Source of the DNA: Bacteroidales bacterium
Lineage (GTDB): Bacteria > Bacteroidota > Bacteroidia > Bacteroidales > Prolixibacteraceae
DNA: 64,000 nt
Direction: 5' to 3'
Assembly (NCBI GenBank): GCA_012719495.1
Contig: JAAYAG010000011.1
Coordinates: forward strand, 62,001-126,000
Positions 1,808 through 17,889 of this stretch are shown here, in pieces. Under the pieces are notes generated by a model. The model was given only the letters and a program-made list of their open reading frames with translations. It made no database searches and was not told where the DNA came from. Position 1 is the first letter of the stretch, and each line of letters starts with the position of its first letter. Both the position numbers and the translations under genes were made by a program.

Positions 1808-4297
1808 ATGCAGGTAATTTTTCCATCAAATTTTGAACAGAAAATTGGTTTCGATAAAATAAGGCAAAACCTTAAAGACAATTGTCTCAGTGCCATTGGT
1901 GCCGATTATGTCGATGCCATTTCATTCATGAACCAAATAGAAGAAATTGATCTGCAAACCGGACTAACCGAAGAATTTCTTCGCATTATCCGCGAACACG
2001 ACAACTTTCCCACCACTTTTTACTTCGATATGCGTAAGTCGTTGAACAAAATTCGCATAGAAGGCACATTTCTCGAAGTACTGGAAGTTTTCGACCTTAA
2101 ACGCTCTCTTGAAACCTTAAAAGGAATTGTTTCATTTTTCAATGCGGCCAAAACAGATGCTTTTCCCCTGCTAAAAGCCAAAGCTGGAAATGTTTCAAAC
2201 TTCAACGAAATATTACGCGAAATAGACCGTATCCTTACCAAATTTGGCACAATAAAAGACAATGCTTCTTCAGAACTTGCTGAAATAAGAAAACAATTAT
2301 CAGCAGTGCAAAGCTCGATAAGCCGTAAGATACAATCAATTATGCAACAATTGCAATCCGACGGTATTGTAGAAGAAGGCACCACTGTTGTTCTGCGCGA
2401 CGGTAGACCGGTAATCCCGGTTGCAGCAGCCAATAAAAAGAAAATCAATGGTATAGTACACGATGAATCGGCCACAGGGAAAACAGCATTTATTGAACCA
2501 TCTGTAATTGTGGAACTTAACAACCGCGTACGCGAACTTGAAAATGCTGAAAAACGAGAAATAATTAAGATTTTGATCCGATTTTCAACCGAAGTACGCC
2601 CCGAAATTGATGCACTTCTTAACTCTTACGATTTTATGGGCGAAATTGATTTCATCAGAAGCAAAGCTCTGTATGCACATCAATACGACTGCATTAAACC
2701 GGAATTGAAAAACGAACCTTTCTTTGACTGGCAGCATGCAAAGCACCCAATCCTAACACAAGCACTCAGAAAAGAAAAACGAGAAGTTGTACCCTTGAGC
2801 CTAAGACTCGATGAACCCAACCGCATCTTGCTGATTTCGGGGCCCAACGCTGGAGGCAAATCAGTATGTCTCAAGTCGGTAGGAATAATACAGTATATGT
2901 TGCAATGCGGGTTGCTTGTTCCAATGGCCGACGGTTCAAAAATGGGCATCTTCGAAGCAATTTTTATCGATATTGGCGATGAACAATCCATCGAAAACGA
3001 CCTCAGCACCTACTCATCGCACCTAATGAACATGAAATTCTTTACCCGTAACTGCAACAAACGAACGCTAGTACTAATCGATGAGTTTGGAACAGGAACC
3101 GAACCAATGCTTGGAGGCGCAATTGCAGAAGCAGTGCTTAATAAACTTAACAAATTGGGTACTTTCGGGGTTATCACCACCCACTACACCAATCTGAAAC
3201 ACTTTGGTGCTGCTGAAAAAGGAATTGTTAACGGAGCAATGCTATATGATTCGGGACAAATGAGGCCCCTTTTCAAACTACAAATTGGTAACCCAGGAAG
3301 TTCTTTTGCTTTTGAAATTGCTCGAAAAATTGGGCTTTCGGAAGAAATACTGAATGAGGCAACCGAAAAACTCGGGAAAGAACACATCGATTATGACAAA
3401 CATTTGCGGGAAATCGTTCGTGACAAACAATACTGGGAATCGAAAAGACAAAAAATAAAAGAGACCGAACGAAAACTCGACAATCTTAGCGAAGAATACT
3501 CGAGTGAGTTGCAACAAGTTCAAAAACAGCGAAAACAGATTATTGCTGAGGCCAAACAGGAAGCTCAGAAAATTTTGGATGACGCCAATAAAATGGTTGA
3601 AAATACCATTCGTGAAATTCGCGAATCACAGGCCGAGAAAGAAAAAACCCGCGAAATCAGAAAAAGCTTTACTGAACATCGTGAAAAAATAGACCAAATA
3701 GAAACAGAAACTTCGGCAAAAATTGCACAACAGATGGAGCGGATAAAGCAAAAACAAAGCCGCGAAAAAAAACCTAAAGAAGTGCAAAAAACGGAGCCAA
3801 AACCAGTTCAAAAAACGATATTCAACCGTGGCGACAAAGTTAAACTGAAAGAAAACGGAAACATTGGTGAGATTATCGAAATTGACAAAAACAAAGTAGT
3901 ACTGGCATTGGGCAATTTAATGACTTCAATGGGGATCGATAAAATTGAGTCCATAAGCAACAATGAAGCAAAAAAGATTGAGAAAGAAACACGTATGGCT
4001 CCCAAAGCCGACAGCTTAAAACGCACCAACGAAATGATGGCCAAACGCCTCACGTTCAAGCCCGATATTGATGTTCGGGGGCAACGTGCCGAAGAAGCCC
4101 TTGCCAATATTCAGTCATTTATCGACGAATCAATAATGTTGCGCCAAAAAACCCTAAGAATTCTGCACGGAAAAGGATACGGAATCCTCAAGGAAATTAT
4201 CCGTAACTATCTGCGCACCGAACCAGCAGTGCAATCGTTCCGCGATGAGCATGTACAACTGGGCGGAGCAGGCATTACAGTGGTCGAACTGGAATAA
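1808..4297 (+). CDS. mutS2: Endonuclease MutS2 family protein
   Basis: 829 residues from ATG 1808; an in-frame TTG at 1781 lies upstream of a -7 element and is less likely. Order: N-terminal MutS core/clamp helices, ABC-type MutS ATPase with Walker A GPNAGGKS (345-352) and Walker B LVLIDEFGTGTEP, a long charged coiled coil (about 530-680, rich in K/E/Q), a KOW-like patch, and a C-terminal Smr domain (DVRGQRAEEA, HGKGYGILKE). It lacks the mismatch-recognition domain of MutS1. Family members have been linked to suppressing recombination and, in Bacillus, to splitting collided ribosomes; which role applies here is not shown. A dehydrogenase gene follows after 31 bases and may be co-transcribed. 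Confidence 0.96.
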   Translation: MQVIFPSNFEQKIGFDKIRQNLKDNCLSAIGADYVDAISFMNQIEEIDLQTGLTEEFLRIIREHDNFPTTFYFDMRKSLNKIRIEGTFLEVLEVFDLKRSLETLKGIVSFFNAAKTDAFPLLKAKAGNVSNFNEILREIDRILTKFGTIKDNASSELAEIRKQLSAVQSSISRKIQSIMQQLQSDGIVEEGTTVVLRDGRPVIPVAAANKKKINGIVHDESATGKTAFIEPSVIVELNNRVRELENAEKREIIKILIRFSTEVRPEIDALLNSYDFMGEIDFIRSKALYAHQYDCIKPELKNEPFFDWQHAKHPILTQALRKEKREVVPLSLRLDEPNRILLISGPNAGGKSVCLKSVGIIQYMLQCGLLVPMADGSKMGIFEAIFIDIGDEQSIENDLSTYSSHLMNMKFFTRNCNKRTLVLIDEFGTGTEPMLGGAIAEAVLNKLNKLGTFGVITTHYTNLKHFGAAEKGIVNGAMLYDSGQMRPLFKLQIGNPGSSFAFEIARKIGLSEEILNEATEKLGKEHIDYDKHLREIVRDKQYWESKRQKIKETERKLDNLSEEYSSELQQVQKQRKQIIAEAKQEAQKILDDANKMVENTIREIRESQAEKEKTREIRKSFTEHREKIDQIETETSAKIAQQMERIKQKQSREKKPKEVQKTEPKPVQKTIFNRGDKVKLKENGNIGEIIEIDKNKVVLALGNLMTSMGIDKIESISNNEAKKIEKETRMAPKADSLKRTNEMMAKRLTFKPDIDVRGQRAEEALANIQSFIDESIMLRQKTLRILHGKGYGILKEIIRNYLRTEPAVQSFRDEHVQLGGAGITVVELE

Positions 4298-4328
4298 ACA
4301 CAACCTTTCTACATTGATTAACAACACC

Positions 4329-7259
4329 ATGAGCAACTCACAATACGAAAAAAAGCTTAAAGCACTTGCTGCTCAGCTCGAGGGAGAACTTCGCTTTGAT
4401 TCTATTTCTAAAATATTATATGCAACCGACGCATCAGCCTATCGTGAAATGCCATTGGCGGTTGCAATCCCAGCATCGAAAAACGACATTGCAAAACTCA
4501 TATCATTTGCCCGCGAGAACGACACATCACTCATCCCACGCGGAGCAGGCACTTCGCTTGCCGGACAAGTAGTTGGCCACGGTATCGTCGTTGATGTGTC
4601 AAGGAACTTTGACAAGATAATAGAGATAAACAGTGAAGAACACTGGGCCAAGGTTGAACCGGGAGTTGTTTTAGCCGAACTCAATTCAAAAGCCAAATCA
4701 ATGGGGCTGCAGTTTGGTCCTGAGACATCAACAGCTACCCGATGTACTATGGGCGGAATGTTGGGGAATAACAGCTGTGGACTGCACTCGCTTGTCTATG
4801 GCAGTGTGCGTGAGCACATTATTGAAACAACTGCATTTTTAAGTGATGGCTCAGAGGTCGTTTTTAAGGAGCTGACACAAACCGAATTTGAAGATAAATG
4901 CAAGGAAAAAACCCTTGAAGGAGAGATTTACCGGCAAATAAAAAACATCTTATCCAATAAAAAGAATCTGGAAGAAATTGAAAATCAATTTCCTGACAAA
5001 ACTGTTCCAAGAAGGAATAACGGGTATGCGCTCGATCAACTATCACAAATGCAGCCTTTTAATCCAGATGGGGAAAAAATAAACCTGGCGAAATTCATTG
5101 CCGGTTCTGAAGGCACATTAGCATTTGTTACCGAAATGAAACTAAACATGGTTCCGCTGCCCCCAAAAGAAAAAGCGCTGCTCTGTGTACATTTTGAACA
5201 GCTCACTGATGCTTTTAATGCCAATCTCATCGGCTTAAGATACAAACCATGGGCAATTGAACTGATGGATAAAACCATCATTAATCTGACGAAAGAAAAT
5301 ATTGGACTGAAACGCAACCGCTTTTTTATCGAAGGCGAACCGGCTGCAATTCTGATCATCGAACTTTGTGGTGACACGAAAGAAGAACTCATTTCAACTG
5401 CAAAAGAAATTGAAAAAGAAATGCTTGCCAATAAACTAGGGTATCATTTCCCAATGATTTGGGGAAACGATATTCCAAAAGTTTGGGGTCTGCGTACAGC
5501 AGGGTTAGGGGTCCTTTCAAATTTACCCGGCGACTCAAAGCCCGTTTCAGTAATCGAAGACACAGCTATTCCGGTCGCCAGGTTCACCGAATTTCTCGAA
5601 GAATTCAGGAACATGATGAAAGAGATGAACCTCGAGGCTGTTTACCACGGACACATTGCCACCGGCGAGTTACACCTGAGGCCAATGCTAAACCTGAAAG
5701 ACAAAACCGATGTAGAGCGCTTCAGGGCTGTAGCCACACGGACTGCAATGCTGGTAAAAAAATACCGTGGATCGCTTAGTGGTGAGCATGGCGACGGTCG
5801 TCTCCGCGGAGAATTCATTCCATTGATGCTTGGAGAAAGGGTGTATCAGCTGTTAAAAGAAATAAAAGCGTGCTGGGATCCCAATCAAGTATTCAACCCA
5901 GGAAAAATAACCGATACCCCGGCAATGAACCAATCGTTGCGCTTTGAGCCGGGAAATGAAACCCGAACACTGAACAGCTACTTTGAATATAAATTAGAGC
6001 CCGGAATGGCTCGGGCAATAGAAAAATGTAACGGCTCGGGCGATTGCCTGAAACAGCAAGTGCGCGGAGGTACCATGTGCCCCAGTTATATGGTTACCCG
6101 AGACGAAATGCATTCAACACGCGGTCGAGCAAATATTTTGCGAGAATTAATTACCCGGCCGCAAAAGCTCAATTGGGCCGATCAACATGAAGTCCTTTAC
6201 GCCCTCGACCTATGCCTCTCGTGCAAAGCATGCAAAAGCGAATGCCCATCGGGAGTGGATATTACCAAGCTTAAAGCCGACTTTCTGCAAAATCATTACG
6301 ATGCAAATCCAATCCCCTTCAGGTCGAAAATTATAGCCAACTTCACTTCCATCATGAATTTGGCCTCATTCTTCCGTCCTGTATCTAACTATGCCATGCG
6401 TTCGCATATTTTTTCACCCCTGATTAAACTAGCAATTGAGTTTGCACCGCAACGACCTCTGCCTCAACTTTCAAAGATTCGCATGTCGGGCTGGTACGCA
6501 AAACGGGCGAAACATCAAGGGTTTGAAAAAGGAAAAGTATATCTCTATAACGACGAATTTCTTGAACTAACCGACTCTCATATAGGTATAAAAGCCTTTC
6601 TTCTTCTCGAAAAACTTGGATACGAAGTGATAATACCGCCCCACGTAGCCAGTGGGCGAACCTATCTTTCGAAAGGATTTGTGAAAAAAGCCCGGAATTT
6701 AGCCGAAAAGAATATTGAGATGTTAAAAGACATCATCAGTCCTGAGACCCCACTTATTGGAATTGAGCCTTCTGCGATCTTGTCATTTCGCGATGAATAC
6801 CCCGAAATTGTTGGCGAAAAATACAAAAACGATGCCCGCAAATTAGCCGAATCGGTGCTAATGTTCGATGAATTTATTGTTCGTGAATTAGAAAAAGGTA
6901 ACATCAGCCGAGAACAATTTACTAGTGAAAAAGCTGAAATTAAATTACATGGCCATTGTCATCAAAAGTCGTTAGCAACAACTTCATCTTCAATAAAAAT
7001 GCTGCAAATACCCATTAACTATACGGTTACAGAGATCCCATCGGGTTGCTGCGGAATGGCTGGTTCTTTCGGCTACGAAAAAGAACACTACAAACTTTCT
7101 ATGGAAATTGGAGAAATGGTACTCTTCCCTGCCATACGAGAGACTCCAACGAAAATAATAATTGCAGCACCAGGAACCAGTTGCCGTGAACAAATTGAAC
7201 ATGGGACAGGGCGCAAAGCACTTCATCCTATTGAAATACTGCATGATGCTTTACACTAG
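4329..7259 (+). CDS. FAD-binding and Fe-S D-2-hydroxyacid dehydrogenase (YdiJ/GlcD-GlcF fusion type)
   Basis: 976 residues from ATG 4329; an earlier in-frame ATG at 4245 would overlap mutS2 by 53 bases. The N-terminal half is a VAO-type FAD domain (PRGAGTSLAGQ near residue 70; NNSCG; SGEHGDGRLRGEF) as in D-lactate, glycolate and D-2-hydroxyglutarate dehydrogenases. Then come two 4Fe-4S cysteine clusters (from C567, and CLSCKACKSECP from C629) and C-terminal CCG-type segments (HGHCHQKS; SGCCGMAGSFG, Cys907/908) like GlcF/HdrD. The layout matches E. coli YdiJ, which oxidises D-2-hydroxyglutarate. It likely passes electrons to quinone at the inner membrane. The exact substrate (D-lactate or D-2-hydroxyglutarate) cannot be fixed by reading. 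Confidence 0.9.
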   Translation: MSNSQYEKKLKALAAQLEGELRFDSISKILYATDASAYREMPLAVAIPASKNDIAKLISFARENDTSLIPRGAGTSLAGQVVGHGIVVDVSRNFDKIIEINSEEHWAKVEPGVVLAELNSKAKSMGLQFGPETSTATRCTMGGMLGNNSCGLHSLVYGSVREHIIETTAFLSDGSEVVFKELTQTEFEDKCKEKTLEGEIYRQIKNILSNKKNLEEIENQFPDKTVPRRNNGYALDQLSQMQPFNPDGEKINLAKFIAGSEGTLAFVTEMKLNMVPLPPKEKALLCVHFEQLTDAFNANLIGLRYKPWAIELMDKTIINLTKENIGLKRNRFFIEGEPAAILIIELCGDTKEELISTAKEIEKEMLANKLGYHFPMIWGNDIPKVWGLRTAGLGVLSNLPGDSKPVSVIEDTAIPVARFTEFLEEFRNMMKEMNLEAVYHGHIATGELHLRPMLNLKDKTDVERFRAVATRTAMLVKKYRGSLSGEHGDGRLRGEFIPLMLGERVYQLLKEIKACWDPNQVFNPGKITDTPAMNQSLRFEPGNETRTLNSYFEYKLEPGMARAIEKCNGSGDCLKQQVRGGTMCPSYMVTRDEMHSTRGRANILRELITRPQKLNWADQHEVLYALDLCLSCKACKSECPSGVDITKLKADFLQNHYDANPIPFRSKIIANFTSIMNLASFFRPVSNYAMRSHIFSPLIKLAIEFAPQRPLPQLSKIRMSGWYAKRAKHQGFEKGKVYLYNDEFLELTDSHIGIKAFLLLEKLGYEVIIPPHVASGRTYLSKGFVKKARNLAEKNIEMLKDIISPETPLIGIEPSAILSFRDEYPEIVGEKYKNDARKLAESVLMFDEFIVRELEKGNISREQFTSEKAEIKLHGHCHQKSLATTSSSIKMLQIPINYTVTEIPSGCCGMAGSFGYEKEHYKLSMEIGEMVLFPAIRETPTKIIIAAPGTSCREQIEHGTGRKALHPIEILHDALH

Positions 7260-7484: not shown

Positions 7485-9944
7485 ATGGCAAACATAGAGT
7501 TAAATAAAAAGGCAACAACAATAACGGAGAAAGAAAATGAAGTACAAACCTTTTCCCAAGGTTGCTTTTTAAGTACTCTACATATCCCGTTTACCCCTCT
7601 AGATAATAGCAACATCATTGTTAAACTCGATAATATTTTTCTATTCCACGGACTCGAAAAGATTGTATGTAAATTGCTCGACGAGGTTCGTGAATCATGC
7701 TTCAATAACTGCGGCGACATCTCGGCAAGTATTGATATTGAACATGAAGATTGTCCGATACTGGAAAAAATCGGAATAAATAAAATATCCTTCTTTCATT
7801 TCACCAACGAACCTAAGCGATTGCCCTTCCTGTACAAATCAATTGCAAATGAATTACGGAACATTTTTAACGCCATTCAAAACCCATCGGTGAACGAAGG
7901 CTTTTTCAATTCAAATTTACATGAAAGCCCCACGGCATTGCTTTTTTCATCCGATGAGCTCATTGAAGAAGAGAATATTAAGCTGAACTATCTTGTTGAA
8001 TTCGTTAGTCACTCACATTTACTCCGTTTTACTGTTGAAGATGTACAAAGTTCAAGACTAAATGTAAAAAGTATAAACCATAGGGAAATTTCTACAACCG
8101 AAAAACTAGCCAACTTCTTCACTATTAACCAGCATTCATATTTAATATTTTCAACACTAATAAACCTTTGCAGGGAATATAAGCTAAGCTATAAAGATTC
8201 TGGCATGCAACTTTCTGAGCTTCTTGGAGCAATAAAGATGCAAGGATATTCCAATATGCGCGAAATTAGCATAAACTGGACTAGTAATGTGGTTCAATCG
8301 CTGTTATCGGAAGAAGGAGAACACTGGCATTCTACATTAAATGGAATACTATTGGTCCTCTCCGACCCAATAGCCCTGAAATTATTATCTGAAGGGAAAA
8401 CAATTTCAATCGACAACAATGGGCAAAACGCATACCTATCATTTACACAGCGTGGCCGAAACCTACAGATCGATTTGGACAAAAAAAAGCTGGCCGTTCA
8501 GCTAAGTAAATACCTATACGACAACGAATTTATTGCAGCAAAGACCAAATTATTAGGCACCTCGCTCGAAAAAACCCATATTTTGTTTATCACCCCGTTT
8601 ACACAAAATACGCTTATAATGCTTGGTGCTTTCGAAAAGATGCACGCATATTCGGTTGATGTGCTGATAACAAATCCAGCTGAGAACATCCTTCCCAGCC
8701 ATATTGAGACAGCACTTTCGTTACCTGAATCTTGTTTTCGGTTTTTAGGCCTAAAGCAAGCCAAAGGAAAACATTCAGCATACAAATATTGCCTAAGCGA
8801 CAAATTCTCGTCGATAGAAGATTTGGCAGAATTACAATGGTGGCTCGAAGTTGGCGAATTTGATCTCTTTCACGCGATACAACGAATTGGATTACATCTG
8901 TTATTTAACAGCCTGGCACACAACAAGGCTATTTCAACAGTCATTATTGAAGATGATGCATACCTCACCTCTGCCCTTACCGAATATTCCAGCTCAAAAC
9001 TTTCAATTGCAGAAGTATTTGAAACTTGCGGTTATGAAAACGGCCTCATTCCTTATGAGACTAAGTCTGGTAATTTCAATTCGTGGCTCAATTCTGGTCT
9101 CGCAGGCAGCATCGAATTTGGGCTAAATGTTGCGTCCTCAACAAGCGAAACAGGCAAAAACATTGATTATTTCCCTTTCAAAAAAGTACTCCCGGCAGAA
9201 AAACTTTACGAATCAGAAGAAATTGCCCGCTCATGCATAAATGCAATAGAGAATTTGTTGAATTCGACCGGACGGACTATCAATGAGCGGAACTGGCTGA
9301 TTTTGGGCACACAAAACAACGTTGGAGAACACATCAAATCAATCTTAAACCAACGAACCCGATCGAAAAACATTACAGGAGTCTTAACTGACGGCTCACA
9401 CAATTTAAATAACAACAACGATTATTTATCAATCGATAATTTACCTGACTCACTCTATGAAAATTCCGATATGATTTTTTGCATAAGCGGAAACCAGGCC
9501 GCCAACGAAAACTTTTTCGAGAAATTGATTTTTAAAACAAAAAAACAACAACTTTTCTTAGCCAGCGGTACCACCCGAAACAACGAATTTATCCCTTTTA
9601 TCAACTGGATTGAAAAACTACAAACAGAAAAGTTTAATGATTGTGAGTCAACCATTATAAAAATTGAAAAGAAGCCAATTGAGAGCCAGAAATCATGGAG
9701 TTGCGCGGGGACACTGTATACCATAGAAATCAAGTCAACCAAAAACATTAAAGAACTTGATTTATATCTACTTAACAATGGAAACCCCATATATATGCAG
9801 CAATACGGTATAGTTCACGAAGCACTTCAGGAATCGATAACAGAATGCCTTCAAACATTGAATAGTTTGGCAACCGCTAAAAATGAATATGAAGAACAAT
9901 TTCTTGAAAAAATACAGTTAAATAAAACCCGAGTTATCACCTAA
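7485..9944 (+). CDS. Uncharacterised protein, C-terminal half like S-adenosylhomocysteine hydrolase
   Basis: 819 residues, no signal peptide or membrane segment, so probably cytosolic. The N-terminal 350 residues match nothing I recognise. From about residue 360 the order of features follows the S-adenosylhomocysteine hydrolase (SAHH) fold: HILFITPFTQNTLIMLGAF (like the substrate-domain HMTxQTAxLIETLxxLGA), TVIIEDDAYLTSAL (like MILDDGGDLT), then GSIEFGLNVASS, a linker, and a Rossmann-like segment NWLILGTQNNVGEHI with DMIFCISGNQ downstream. The glycine motif GTQNNVG lacks the middle Gly of the SAHH GxGxxG, and active-site residues look only partly kept. This is a weak-similarity inference. It is flanked by long AT-rich gaps, so it is probably its own transcript. 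It could be an enzyme of related chemistry or a binding protein. Confidence 0.4.
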   Translation: MANIELNKKATTITEKENEVQTFSQGCFLSTLHIPFTPLDNSNIIVKLDNIFLFHGLEKIVCKLLDEVRESCFNNCGDISASIDIEHEDCPILEKIGINKISFFHFTNEPKRLPFLYKSIANELRNIFNAIQNPSVNEGFFNSNLHESPTALLFSSDELIEEENIKLNYLVEFVSHSHLLRFTVEDVQSSRLNVKSINHREISTTEKLANFFTINQHSYLIFSTLINLCREYKLSYKDSGMQLSELLGAIKMQGYSNMREISINWTSNVVQSLLSEEGEHWHSTLNGILLVLSDPIALKLLSEGKTISIDNNGQNAYLSFTQRGRNLQIDLDKKKLAVQLSKYLYDNEFIAAKTKLLGTSLEKTHILFITPFTQNTLIMLGAFEKMHAYSVDVLITNPAENILPSHIETALSLPESCFRFLGLKQAKGKHSAYKYCLSDKFSSIEDLAELQWWLEVGEFDLFHAIQRIGLHLLFNSLAHNKAISTVIIEDDAYLTSALTEYSSSKLSIAEVFETCGYENGLIPYETKSGNFNSWLNSGLAGSIEFGLNVASSTSETGKNIDYFPFKKVLPAEKLYESEEIARSCINAIENLLNSTGRTINERNWLILGTQNNVGEHIKSILNQRTRSKNITGVLTDGSHNLNNNNDYLSIDNLPDSLYENSDMIFCISGNQAANENFFEKLIFKTKKQQLFLASGTTRNNEFIPFINWIEKLQTEKFNDCESTIIKIEKKPIESQKSWSCAGTLYTIEIKSTKNIKELDLYLLNNGNPIYMQQYGIVHEALQESITECLQTLNSLATAKNEYEEQFLEKIQLNKTRVIT

Positions 9945-10064: not shown

Positions 10065-10832
10065 ATGTATTCACACGATGTAGATTATAAGATTATTGGT
10101 GACGATATCCAACTGGTGGAGATTGAACTTGACCCCAGCGAATCGGTAATTGCCGAAGCAGGCACCATGATGTACATGGAGCAAGAGATAGATTTTCAGA
10201 CTAAAATGGGTGACGGATCGAATCCCAACGAAGGCTTGTTCGACAAGTTATTCAAAGGCGCAGGACGGCTTATATCGGGCGAATCGCTCTTTTTAACCCA
10301 CTTTACTAACAGAGGGTTCAGCAAAAGCCATGTAGCTTTCGCAGCTCCTTACCCCGGAACCATTGTACCTATAGAACTATCGCAATTCAATGGCCAGATT
10401 ACCGTTCAGCGCGATGCTTTCTTGTGCGCCGCCATGGGAACCAAAGTATCGATTGTTTTTAACCGAAAACTTGGCGCTGGCTTTTTTAGCGGTGAAGGTT
10501 TTATTCTTCAGAGAATTGAAGGCGACGGACGAGCATTTATCCATGCTGGGGGAACTGTGGTTGAGAAAGTTCTCAACGGAGAAACGTTGCGTGTTGATAC
10601 CGGTTGTGTTGTTGGTTTTACCAGCGGAATTGATTTCGACATTCAGCAGGCCGGTGGATTAAAGTCTATGGTTTTTGGTGGCGAAGGAATGTTCTTGGCA
10701 ACACTGCGCGGACATGGAAAAGTGTGGCTTCAATCGATGCCAATCAGCAAACTTGTCCGCGAACTTAGCTCTATGGGCGGAAACCAACGCAAAGAAACCG
10801 GAGGCTTCTTGAACCAATTTCTACAAGACTAA
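10065..10832 (+). CDS. AIM24/DUF124 family protein (TIGR00266)
   Basis: 255 residues, a full-length member of the AIM24 (formerly DUF124) family of beta-sandwich proteins. Recognisable are the early EAGTMMYME segment, the central glycine-rich strands (GAGFFSGEGFILQRIEGDG, then AFIHAGG) and the ending with GHGKVWLQSMP. No signal peptide. Bacterial members have no settled role; the yeast relative is needed for mitochondrial membrane organisation. It stands alone between the orphan gene and a convergent permease, closed by a strong bidirectional hairpin. The last residues, rich in Gly/Asn/Gln, are a common family tail. Function is left open. Confidence 0.88.
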   Translation: MYSHDVDYKIIGDDIQLVEIELDPSESVIAEAGTMMYMEQEIDFQTKMGDGSNPNEGLFDKLFKGAGRLISGESLFLTHFTNRGFSKSHVAFAAPYPGTIVPIELSQFNGQITVQRDAFLCAAMGTKVSIVFNRKLGAGFFSGEGFILQRIEGDGRAFIHAGGTVVEKVLNGETLRVDTGCVVGFTSGIDFDIQQAGGLKSMVFGGEGMFLATLRGHGKVWLQSMPISKLVRELSSMGGNQRKETGGFLNQFLQD

Positions 10833-14952: not shown

Positions 14953-17409
14953 ATGGCTATTTTTCCTTATCTTCTAAAAACGACCATAAGTCTACTCTTG
15001 TTCTATTTGCTCTATACAAATATTTTCAAGAAAGAAGGGATACTAAAATTCAACCGATATTATTTATTGGTTTCACTCATCGCTTCTTTTCTGTTACCCT
15101 TTATTGAAGTAAATTTCAATATTGCACCCGAATTCTCGAACAGATTATACAATCCCGGGTATAATGCCACAATCGTTCAAAATGTGGATGTGATACCTGA
15201 AAAAAATACACCAGAAAACACCATTTGGGACCAGCCAACAATAAATCAGCCACCAATTATTTCTCCTGTTCAGCCTAAAGCCCCAACATCGAATCCAATT
15301 AACTTTTTCGAAATAGTAAGTTGGACATTGATTGGCCTTTATGTACTTGGCGTTCTAGTTTTGCTTTTTAGTTTTTTGTATCAACTTATGCAAACCCTGC
15401 GCTTATTTAAGCACAATACAATCGAAAATATCTCAAATGCAAAACTCATTGAACACAACTTGGAAATTATGCCCTTTTCAATATTTAATTACATCCTAAT
15501 CAACAAAAATCATTATGGCGAGAAAGAGCTGGAATATGTTTTGATGCATGAAATGGAACACATCAATCAAAAACACTCTTTCGATATTTTACTGGTCGAA
15601 CTCCTTAAAGTCATTTTCTGGATTAACCCAATAGTTTGGTTTTACGAAAGTGAAATGAAGCAAAACCATGAATACCTTGCCGACCGCGGAGTAATTGCCA
15701 GAGGCGTTCATACACCCGATTATCAATTAGTATTATTAACAAGCAGTTTAGGTATACCAAAATTCAATATCGTCAACAATTTTAATCAATCGTACATTAA
15801 AAAACGCATTACAATGATGACAAATAAAAACAGTAATAAACTTTCAATATGGAAGTTATTACTAATGATCCCAGTAGTTTTTGCAATAATAATTGCCTGT
15901 GCAAAACCATCGGGCAGCAAAACAACGGGTAATGAAAACATAGCAGCCAAAATTGAGGCAGCAGGAGAAATTACCGATTTCACCAAGTACATCGAGCTGA
16001 ATACACCTTATGATTGGGTAAGCTATCATCGTTCTGATCTTTTTTGCAAAGGAACATATACGATCACTCAAATCAATGAAGATGGTTCATTCTTCGGATT
16101 TCAAGTAAACCACACTAAACATGCGAATATTCCTGTAACCGGAAAACTCACCAAAGATCTTTTTGAGATATATACTGGAAGTCCATGGAATGAAATTTGG
16201 TCAATCAAATCTTCGGAAAATGGCAAGTTGTGTGGAGAGATATTTGCCGATTATTCATTGGCCAGAACAAGCAAGCTTACTTTTTATCTGGCTAAGAAAA
16301 TTGGCTACGATGAATTGTTGCCCGCTGCTTTAAGCAACCCGGGCGAAGAAATTTCAAAAAACCTCCACTTAAAGTTAAATGAAAAGTATTTCTACGAAAC
16401 TTTTGGTTATAATGGAGAACTTGCCATGACAGGATGGTTCATGATTACGAATTTTGACAAAACGACCCTTAAGATTTCTGGACTTCAATGGAATTACATT
16501 GGTAATTGTCCAGGTGCATTTAGCGGAAGTCTCGATGATAATAACCTTACTATCAACATTGGAGAACCGTGGAATGAAGTTTGGAAAGCAAAATTGGAAG
16601 GAGACCTGTTAAAAGGAACCCTTGAAATGCGTCCTACAGAGTTGGGTTTTGTACACCAAACACAATCTTGGGTAATGGCCAACACCAATCATCCAATACA
16701 CACCGCCGATAAAGTTGCAAAGCAGAGAATTCCGTATAATGTTGCACGCTATTCTGGCATGGAAGAAGATCTTAAAGCTTTGTTGGCTGAAAACATGAAA
16801 TATCCGGAGCAAGCCAAAAAGGATAAGATTGAAGGACGGGTTTATGTATCGTTCAATGTTAAAACCGATGGTTCGATTGCTAATTTAAAGGTGGCCAGAA
16901 AAGTTAATCCGTTACTTGACGAAGAAGCATTAAGACTAGTAAATTTAACCGATAAAAAATGGGTGCCTGCTTTAATCAACGATCAACCTACCGAAAGTGA
17001 ACATCAATTACTTATAAATTTCAGGTTAGACAATAAACAAATTAGTAATACGCAAAAAACTGAAATTATTACGCAACCATTTGAAAATGTTACGCAAACA
17101 TCAGTAGTTATTGAAGGTAAGGTAACCGACAAGGAGACAAAAGAGGCATTGGCATTTGTTAATGTTGTGGAGATTGATAATAATGGCAGAATGGTTACAG
17201 GTACAACAACAGACAAAAATGGAGCTTTTGTTATGAAAATTAAAGATGTAACTAATTCAATTCAAGCTTCGTTTAAAGGCTATAAAAAAACAGCTTTAAA
17301 AATAAGAGATGTAACTAATTCAATTCAAACTTCGTTCAAAGGAGATAAAAAAACAACTTTAGAATTAAGGAGTTCAATTAGTAATATTGAATTGGAGAAA
17401 GAGCGTTAA
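14953..17409 (+). CDS. BlaR1-like M56 metallopeptidase with TonB-C and CarboxypepD-type tail
   Basis: 818 residues. The N-terminal part is an M56 sensor protease: membrane helices near residues 5-50 and 115-140, zinc motif HEMEH (199-203) and the following EYLAD, then another helix near 300-316 ending in IIIACAKPS. Outside it lie two copies of a similar domain (about 340-450 and 470-580, each with PWNE[IV]W), a TonB C-terminal-like domain (about 605-690; YPEQAKKDKIEGRVYVSF) and a carboxypeptidase-regulatory-like beta domain (VIEGKVTDKETKEALAFVNV) that carries a 21-residue tandem duplication. BlaR1 relatives sense an outside signal and cleave the BlaI repressor. The BlaI gene follows after 123 bases. 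The extra domains suggest an envelope or cell-wall signal, not simply a beta-lactam. Confidence 0.88.
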   Translation: MAIFPYLLKTTISLLLFYLLYTNIFKKEGILKFNRYYLLVSLIASFLLPFIEVNFNIAPEFSNRLYNPGYNATIVQNVDVIPEKNTPENTIWDQPTINQPPIISPVQPKAPTSNPINFFEIVSWTLIGLYVLGVLVLLFSFLYQLMQTLRLFKHNTIENISNAKLIEHNLEIMPFSIFNYILINKNHYGEKELEYVLMHEMEHINQKHSFDILLVELLKVIFWINPIVWFYESEMKQNHEYLADRGVIARGVHTPDYQLVLLTSSLGIPKFNIVNNFNQSYIKKRITMMTNKNSNKLSIWKLLLMIPVVFAIIIACAKPSGSKTTGNENIAAKIEAAGEITDFTKYIELNTPYDWVSYHRSDLFCKGTYTITQINEDGSFFGFQVNHTKHANIPVTGKLTKDLFEIYTGSPWNEIWSIKSSENGKLCGEIFADYSLARTSKLTFYLAKKIGYDELLPAALSNPGEEISKNLHLKLNEKYFYETFGYNGELAMTGWFMITNFDKTTLKISGLQWNYIGNCPGAFSGSLDDNNLTINIGEPWNEVWKAKLEGDLLKGTLEMRPTELGFVHQTQSWVMANTNHPIHTADKVAKQRIPYNVARYSGMEEDLKALLAENMKYPEQAKKDKIEGRVYVSFNVKTDGSIANLKVARKVNPLLDEEALRLVNLTDKKWVPALINDQPTESEHQLLINFRLDNKQISNTQKTEIITQPFENVTQTSVVIEGKVTDKETKEALAFVNVVEIDNNGRMVTGTTTDKNGAFVMKIKDVTNSIQASFKGYKKTALKIRDVTNSIQTSFKGDKKTTLELRSSISNIELEKER
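17236..17361 (+). repeat. 63-base in-frame tandem duplication
   Basis: Two adjacent 63-base units (17236-17298, 17299-17361) with few differences, encoding KIKDVTNSIQASFKGYKKTAL and KIRDVTNSIQTSFKGDKKTTL. It adds 21 residues to the last domain of the M56 protein. The close DNA identity points to a recent duplication. Confidence 0.9.
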
Positions 17410-17532: not shown

Positions 17533-17889
17533 ATGAAGCTTACTACAGCAGAAGAAGAAATTATGCAGATTCTATGGGAACTGGGTGAAGGAACAGTACG
17601 TGATGTGCTGGAAAAATACGAATCGAAAAATCCGGCATACAATACGGTCTCTACGCTCATTAAAATATTGGAGAAGAAAAATTATGTTAGTCATAAAACA
17701 TATAGCAACACGCATGTTTTCTTCCCATTAATTCAAAAAGAAGAATATGCCAAAAACCATCTGTCTAAATTTGTAAAAGAATATTTCGACAATTCATTCC
17801 CTGCAATGGCCTCATTTTTTGCCAAGAACAACAATATTAGCGTTGAAGAATTTGAGGAAATTTTAGAGAAGATTAAAAAAGAAATCTAG
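17533..17889 (+). CDS. blaI: BlaI/MecI/CopY family repressor
   Basis: 118 residues with the winged-helix DNA-binding domain of the family (LTTAEEEIMQILWELGEGTVRDV; YNTVSTLIKILEKKNYV) and a short helical C-terminal dimerisation region. BlaI proteins repress their own operon and are cut by the partner M56 protease. The candidate operator lies before the M56 gene at 14883-14927. The order protease then repressor is the reverse of the common blaI-blaR1 order, and the 123-base gap before it leaves open whether it also has its own promoter. No beta-lactamase gene is close; what the system controls, apart from itself, is unknown. Confidence 0.92.
   Translation: MKLTTAEEEIMQILWELGEGTVRDVLEKYESKNPAYNTVSTLIKILEKKNYVSHKTYSNTHVFFPLIQKEEYAKNHLSKFVKEYFDNSFPAMASFFAKNNNISVEEFEEILEKIKKEI

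Follow-up and report, generated by a model that had tools for sequence, protein, structure and literature searches.

Gene content and setting of the locus

The whole stretch of 64,000 nucleotides analysed here (the window) carries a gene for a long protein whose C-terminal part is predicted to fold like S-adenosylhomocysteine hydrolase (SAHH; EC 3.13.2.1). The gene, its two neighbours and the parts of its product are listed in Table 1. An A+T-rich gap of 225 bases separates the gene from the D-2-hydroxyglutarate-dehydrogenase-like gene. Three divergent homologues show the frame to be coding: they match most of its length at 31–33% identity, with one of the three truncated by a contig end. Its G+C content by codon position is 0.42/0.32/0.38, with the minimum at the second position, as in the neighbouring genes. 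The two genes upstream are syntenic in three related genomes, among them G003, whose own homologue sits elsewhere; in all three, the SAHH-like gene and the AIM24 gene are both absent from the roughly 5.5 kb after those syntenic genes. A separate, normal SAHH is encoded elsewhere in the window genome and, with 503.3 bits to PF05221, served as the control for the Pfam search. Further along the window, positions 14953-17409 encode an 818-residue M56 (BlaR1-type) peptidase that also has a TonB C-terminal domain and a carboxypeptidase-regulatory-like domain; a penicillinase-repressor (BlaI-type) gene comes next, at 17533-17889.

Table 1. Positions in the window of the gene for the SAHH-fold protein, its neighbours, and the parts and motif sites of the protein
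Feature	Position	Strand	Remarks
D-2-hydroxyglutarate-dehydrogenase-like gene, upstream neighbour	4245..7259		
SAHH-fold protein gene, whole	7485..9944	+	ATG-started open reading frame, 819 codons, no internal stop
N-terminal part, residues 1-336	7485..8492	+	Kept in the family; unmatched in Pfam and among PDB sequences
SAHH-like region, model residues about 337-803	8493..9893	+	Predicted structure
PFTQN (371-375), probable site of SAHH HxTxE(Q) nucleobase motif	8595..8609	+	Relatives HFTNE/HFTGE
EDDAY (489-493), probable site of SAHH DDGGD	8949..8963	+	Relatives EDGGY
GSIEFGLNV (541-549), probable site of SAHH GVSEETTTG	9105..9131	+	Relatives GSVEHTRNG
GTQNNVG (608-614), probable site of NAD loop GxGxxG	9306..9326	+	Relatives GSLGAIG
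CISGN (666-670), probable site of SAHH TTTGN	9480..9494	+	
ASGTT (693-697), probable site of SAHH Gly-His-Phe/Tyr molecular gate, without His	9561..9575	+	Relatives ASGST
AIM24-family gene, downstream neighbour	10065..10832		

Relatives and their distribution

The protein had been introduced as an orphan, a label that needs correcting, as it has three homologues, whose genes lie in a conserved order. The family therefore has four known members, the window copy and three homologues in Prolixibacteraceae or Bacteroidales MAGs. An alignment-profile scan of genome contigs located the three loci in Tobar14m-G4 and Zod_maxbin.0112 (Prolixibacteraceae) and in CSSed10_38 (Bacteroidales; locus L014). 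A single-sequence scan of genome contigs returned no homologue, so that single-sequence scans miss relatives here. Genomes with a match numbered 2 among 100 relatives, 3 among 140 in the family, 1 among 393 in the order and 1 among 295 in the class, each count including the window's own genome and the genome sets overlapping. The three relatives, of which the L004 member is cut by a contig end, are 52–53% identical to one another, and the window copy is 31–33% identical to them. The family is a new, divergent and rare variant of a known fold family.

A tblastn search with the L003 protein (E ≤ 0.01) gave no match among 50,697 phage records and 72,556 plasmid records, and an alignment scan of viral contigs found no homologue. 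A defence or phage origin was considered and found no support, there being neither a PADLOC or PHROGs match nor a phage record. Among the listed titles and opening lines of abstracts, which came from indirect terms and are no proof of absence, there was no description of the SAHH-like family or of its gene order.

Predicted fold of the protein

Full-length structures of the window protein and of the L014 relative were predicted with AlphaFold2 from an alignment of the four family members, without templates. Model confidence was modest, with a mean pLDDT of 56.3 for the window protein and 67.3 for L014, and pTM values of 0.38 and 0.44 respectively. In a Foldseek search of the PDB with the window model, all 22 matches at E ≤ 0.001 were SAHHs (best 1b3r, E 7.0e-9), and the next family was dipicolinate synthase A, from E 1.1e-3 (3d4o). 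VIA-align placed residues 342-802 of the window model on the Thermotoga SAHH 5tov with a Z score of 18.8 (rmsd 4.0, 338 aligned residues). The L014 model gave a best SAHH match of E 5.3e-11 in Foldseek and aligned with 3x2f at Z 22.5 (rmsd 4.4, 361 aligned residues). Identity to the SAHHs was 11–17% in the VIA-align comparisons, and the aligned part began at model residues 334 to 347, so that the structural matches cover the models only from about residue 335 onward.

The best 50 VIA-align entries for each model were SAHH or SAHH-like, two of them, 1v8b and 3x2e, being titled just 'hydrolase'. The structure 1v8b is that of an SAHH. The other, 3x2e, is given as an SAHH in the available text of PMC13406329. 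Both models were built on the same four sequences and are not independent of each other. Despite the modest model confidence the ranking is clear, and on the predicted structures an SAHH fold for the window protein is highly probable.

Since SAHH entries top the structure ranking, the core of the preliminary description is supported. The divergent, SAHH-like domain that it proposed was to begin near residue 360, and model residues from about 337 to 803 match SAHH. The strong resemblance to folds of the 1LI4/1V8B type, which it named as the support to look for, was found with 1b3r and 1li4 in Foldseek and with 5tov, 3x2f, 1li4 and 1v8b in VIA-align. Its N-terminal domain of about 350 residues that could not be placed is likewise borne out, at about 335 residues: this part had no Pfam match in any of the four members and no meaningful PDB-sequence match. 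It is kept in the family, the window copy being 36–39% identical to the relatives over residues 30-345.

Limits of comparison at the sequence level

Sequence searches gave no comparable signal. PF05221 and PF00670 did not match the whole window protein at E ≤ 1, nor the C-terminal halves of the four members at E ≤ 10. The sole Pfam match of the window protein up to E 1 was to a Rossmann family, THF_DHG_CYH_C (the THF dehydrogenase NAD domain), at E 0.013 and below threshold (15.3 bits, cut-off 27). NCBIfam, PADLOC and PHROGs held no family for the protein at E ≤ 1. Against PDB sequences, phmmer with the window protein returned nothing up to E 10, and profile searches gave only weak Rossmann or unrelated matches, at E 0.37 or worse.

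For a profile-profile comparison, 20 SAHHs were picked for variety from 50 that had been extracted from 51 scanned loci. The family aligned with them colinearly over 353 columns (-mact 0.1), or 239 columns at the default setting; the longest alignment in 100 shuffles spanned at most 142 columns. The score of 19.9 was equalled or beaten by 18 of the 100 column-shuffled SAHH alignments (best shuffle 26.8), and the likeness to SAHH at the level of sequence is therefore not significant beyond chance. The claim of a common fold accordingly rests on structure. Because shuffles reach the profile score, the residue equivalences given below rest on the fold and the order of motifs and are to be read as probable.

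Active-site residues

The available text of PMC10978960 gives HxTxE(Q) as the nucleobase fingerprint of SAH-preferring enzymes and HxExK as that of SIH-preferring enzymes. Among the 20 SAHHs, the His of HxTxE(Q) is present in all, the Thr in 18 and Glu or Gln in 18. All 20 have the DDG and EETTT segments, the hinge Lys and Asp-Asn, GxGxxG, the Glu at the end of beta-2, the gate Gly-His and the histidine of GHP. All three relatives carry the nucleobase motif as HFT[NG]E, whereas it is missing from the window copy (PFTQN). The catalytic DDG and EETTT segments are both changed in the window copy (EDDAY, IEFGLN). Retained in the relatives are the second Asp of DDGG and, in EETTT, the Glu and the Thr that come first. 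By the profile alignment, all four members depart from EETTT at its second Glu and its last two Thr, and likewise from the T-K-x-x-F-D-N hinge segment, which is shortened in the relatives and shorter still by four in the window copy, where no matching Lys or Asp-Asn is found.

The NAD loop of the relatives, GSLGAIG, is of the GxxGxxG type, and that of the window copy (GTQNNVG) follows neither pattern. At the end of beta-2 the relatives have an Asp (GIDI/GLDI), and the window copy (ITGVLTDG) has no acid at the matching position. A His-Phe gate and a Lys/Tyr tail of SAHH are described in the available text of PMC13406329. The gate His is changed in all four members (ASGTT in the window copy, ASGST in the relatives), and the His of GHP is altered in all three members that reach that far. 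The C-terminal Lys/Tyr tail (KPxxYRY) is missing from the window copy and from the two relatives with an intact end. This absence has no diagnostic value, as the ending is also lacking in 14 of the 20 true SAHHs. The window copy does keep D490 and several other residues of the SAHH half (SCINAIEN, FLASG), so that some ligand binding by it is possible.

Columns invariant in the three relatives were kept by the window copy at 3 of 10 positions in residues 1-40 and at 70 of 121 in 41-360. The corresponding figures were 23 of 47 in 361-480, 11 of 35 in 481-560 (a range picked after the fact) and 46 of 95 in 561-760, or 80 of 177 over 361-760, which sets the halves at 58% vs 45%. The relatives among themselves are about equally conserved in both halves (48–52% and 55%). 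This points, as a moderate contrast, to a window copy that has decayed somewhat more in its SAHH half, and most near the DDGG and EETTT sites.

The motifs quoted earlier, IIEDDAYLT (487-495), GLNVASS (546-552), LGTQNNVG (607-614) and CISGN (666-670), are all present, and the NAD motif was rightly called altered, reading GTQNNVG instead of GxGxxG. Their order also agrees with that of SAHH, except that the assignment of GLNVASS has to be changed: its GLNV is placed by the profile alignment at the TTTG of EETTTG, not at the NVNDS segment. Judged from these residues, the window copy very probably does not carry out SAHH catalysis. With its substrate, gate and NAD motifs lost and a normal SAHH in the same genome, an inactive or binding protein, one of the functions offered in the preliminary description, fits the window copy better than the other, a new methyl-cycle enzyme.

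Gene order and partners in the relatives

In all three relatives a gene for a membrane protein (ECF-S/HAMP-type) directly precedes the SAHH-like gene. In both cases with enough contig, L005/L003 and L014, the order is MinD-like ATPase gene, membrane protein gene, SAHH-like gene; in L004 the contig ends beyond the membrane protein gene. The membrane proteins of L005 and L004 pass the Pfam cut-off for the ECF-type S component PF07155 and have a HAMP match below cut-off; that of L014 was classed by alignment. The ATPases score below the NCBIfam MinD cut-offs, with 83 bits to TIGR01969 (cut-off 201.75) and 52.7 bits to TIGR01968 (cut-off 212.9) for L014, and 80.4 and 61.5 bits respectively for L005. 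In L014 a further gene on the same strand follows about 20 bases after the SAHH-like gene, which hence need not end the set.

The window genome (G000) gave no match to the relatives' membrane protein, and its MinD/ParA proteins are only distant (best 33% identity, E 3e-12, in a frame of 798 residues). Two other genes lie beside the set in G003. A divergent amidohydrolase gene of the 5'-deoxyadenosine/SAH-deaminase group (L005:5367-6623, minus strand), whose listed NCBIfam matches are all below their own cut-offs, adjoins the MinD-like gene. Just downstream of the SAHH-like gene, on the opposite strand, is a leucine-carboxyl-methyltransferase-type (PF04072) gene (L005:11112-11966, minus strand).

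Proposed function and alternatives

The explanation that we prefer, with a probability of roughly 60%, is that the family is an SAHH-derived nucleoside- or NAD-binding regulator, which in the window genome survives as a solitary pseudoenzyme. A regulatory or binding role, taken by itself, is about an even bet. The protein would consist of two parts, a divergent SAHH fold and, ahead of it, an N-terminal domain of some 335 residues that could not be placed. In the relatives, HxTxE, EDGG, the GxxGxxG loop and the Asp at the end of beta-2 suggest that the SAHH-like half may bind an adenine nucleoside, NAD or both. The substrate domain of SAHH swings by about 18 degrees and closes on its ligand, according to the available text of PMC10978960. 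A motion of this kind, driven by ligand, could act as a switch read by the membrane protein and MinD-like ATPase, in place of SAH hydrolysis. In the window species the gene would persist alone, as a pseudoenzyme descended from such a protein without the ligand machinery. As the partner neighbours of the relatives are missing from the window genome, a signalling role there would fall to the N-terminal half alone; this better-kept half probably carries the remaining binding function, by analogy with AHCYL1/IRBIT.

A more specific version is tentative and, as a whole, unlikely. The relatives would form a new signalling module at the membrane: their SAHH-fold protein would sense methylation or redox state by way of adenosine, SAH or NAD and, through the ECF-S/HAMP-type protein, control how active the MinD-like ATPase is or where it sits. 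The window protein would be a derived, ligand-independent offshoot. If the regulator reading is true, regulators have arisen from the SAHH fold on more than one occasion. The SAHH-derived regulators in the available text of PMC12955632 are animal proteins (AHCYL1/2), to which the bacterial family would add another case. The HxTxE motif and plausible NAD loop of the relatives make the question of a ligand testable by ordinary binding assays.

That the window gene is a decaying, functionless relic left after loss of its partner genes is unlikely. The window genome has no partner match, the window copy is far more diverged than the relatives are mutually, and the syntenic upstream genes of three related genomes are not followed by this gene, all of which fits such decay. 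However, its 819 codons have stayed free of stops with a codon-position G+C like that of the neighbours, and the N-terminal half still shows the identity to the relatives and the 70 kept columns of 121 given above.

Rather improbable, too, is a new active enzyme of the SAHH superfamily, in which the relatives, and perhaps the window copy, would use NAD+ and altered acid/base residues on an adenosine-type substrate other than SAH. The SAHH-type residues kept by the relatives (HxTxE, the second Asp of DDGG, the first Glu and Thr of EETTT, GxxGxxG and the beta-2 Asp) would suit such an enzyme, as would the divergent deaminase-group neighbour in one genome. Yet of the two relatives whose sequence reaches upstream past the ATPase gene, just one has that neighbour. 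By the profile alignment, three of the EETTT residues, the hinge segment and the gate His differ from SAHH in every member and the GHP His in the three that extend to it, and the window copy lacks HxTxE and the NAD loop as well. Descent from another Rossmann dehydrogenase-like family, such as dipicolinate synthase subunit A or the 2-hydroxyacid dehydrogenases, is very improbable: the next structural matches (3d4o) and the sub-threshold THF dehydrogenase match point that way, but the top SAHH entry beats the nearest of these structures by about five orders of magnitude in E, the SAHH alignment spans both domains in order and the best 50 VIA-align entries per model are SAHH or SAHH-like.

Comparison with known systems

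Set against the regulator that we favour, SAHH itself shares the two-domain fold over about 330–390 aligned residues, the order of the motifs and, in the relatives, HxTxE. Unlike SAHH, the family has the N-terminal addition of about 335 residues, no Pfam match and 11–17% identity, and it is without the gate His, catalytic residues and Lys/Tyr tail, with an altered NAD loop. The AHCYLs are highly similar to AHCY. In AHCYL1/IRBIT, as in the family, an extra N-terminal part precedes an SAHH fold whose catalytic residues are substituted, and structures of the human proteins AHCYL1 and AHCYL2 (3mtg, 3gvp) were among the structural matches of the models. The family differs in being bacterial, in the MinD-like and membrane-protein neighbours of the relatives and in an SAHH half that is far more diverged; its N-terminal part gave no Pfam match that would point to an IRBIT domain. 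That an SAHH domain can be inactive and follow a regulatory N-terminal part has a precedent in AHCYL1 and AHCYL2, as presented in the available text of PMC12955632. The archaeal SIHHs share the SAHH fold and a short C terminus, and a SAH-deaminase-type gene adjoins one relative. They carry HxExK, whereas the relatives carry HxTxE and the window copy neither; a reading as SIHH is not favoured, because the relatives have HxTxE.

MinD/ParA-type loci on plasmids resemble the relatives' gene sets in their ATPase. Proteins 41–52% identical to the L014 MinD-like ATPase were found in 13 plasmid records (cyanobacteria, Deinococcus, Rhizobium, Streptomyces), of which 10 were examined with flanks of 6 or 8 kb. 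Unlike the relatives, all 10 lacked the SAHH-like protein and its N-terminal domain, for which the family profiles gave nothing below E 0.14. The last 70 or so residues of the Bacteroidales membrane protein consist of a coiled coil and a TDFF/TDYF-type motif, and a profile of this tail picked out a protein encoded close to the ATPase at 5 of the 10 plasmid loci (E 1.5e-17 to 5.1e-9, the next match at 0.76). That the tail and the MinD-like ATPase recur together suggests that they interact, the tail of about 70 residues possibly being an ATPase-binding element. The tail was seen on HAMP-type or other proteins from several phyla, next to a single subfamily of MinD-like ATPases, in L005, L014, L004, L073, L074, L077, L079 and L080. 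Other neighbours of the ATPase in L073, L075, L076 and L081 include AGE epimerase, STAS-type and GlgX genes, and SpoIIE phosphatase genes are also present in the plasmid clusters of L073, L076 and L081.
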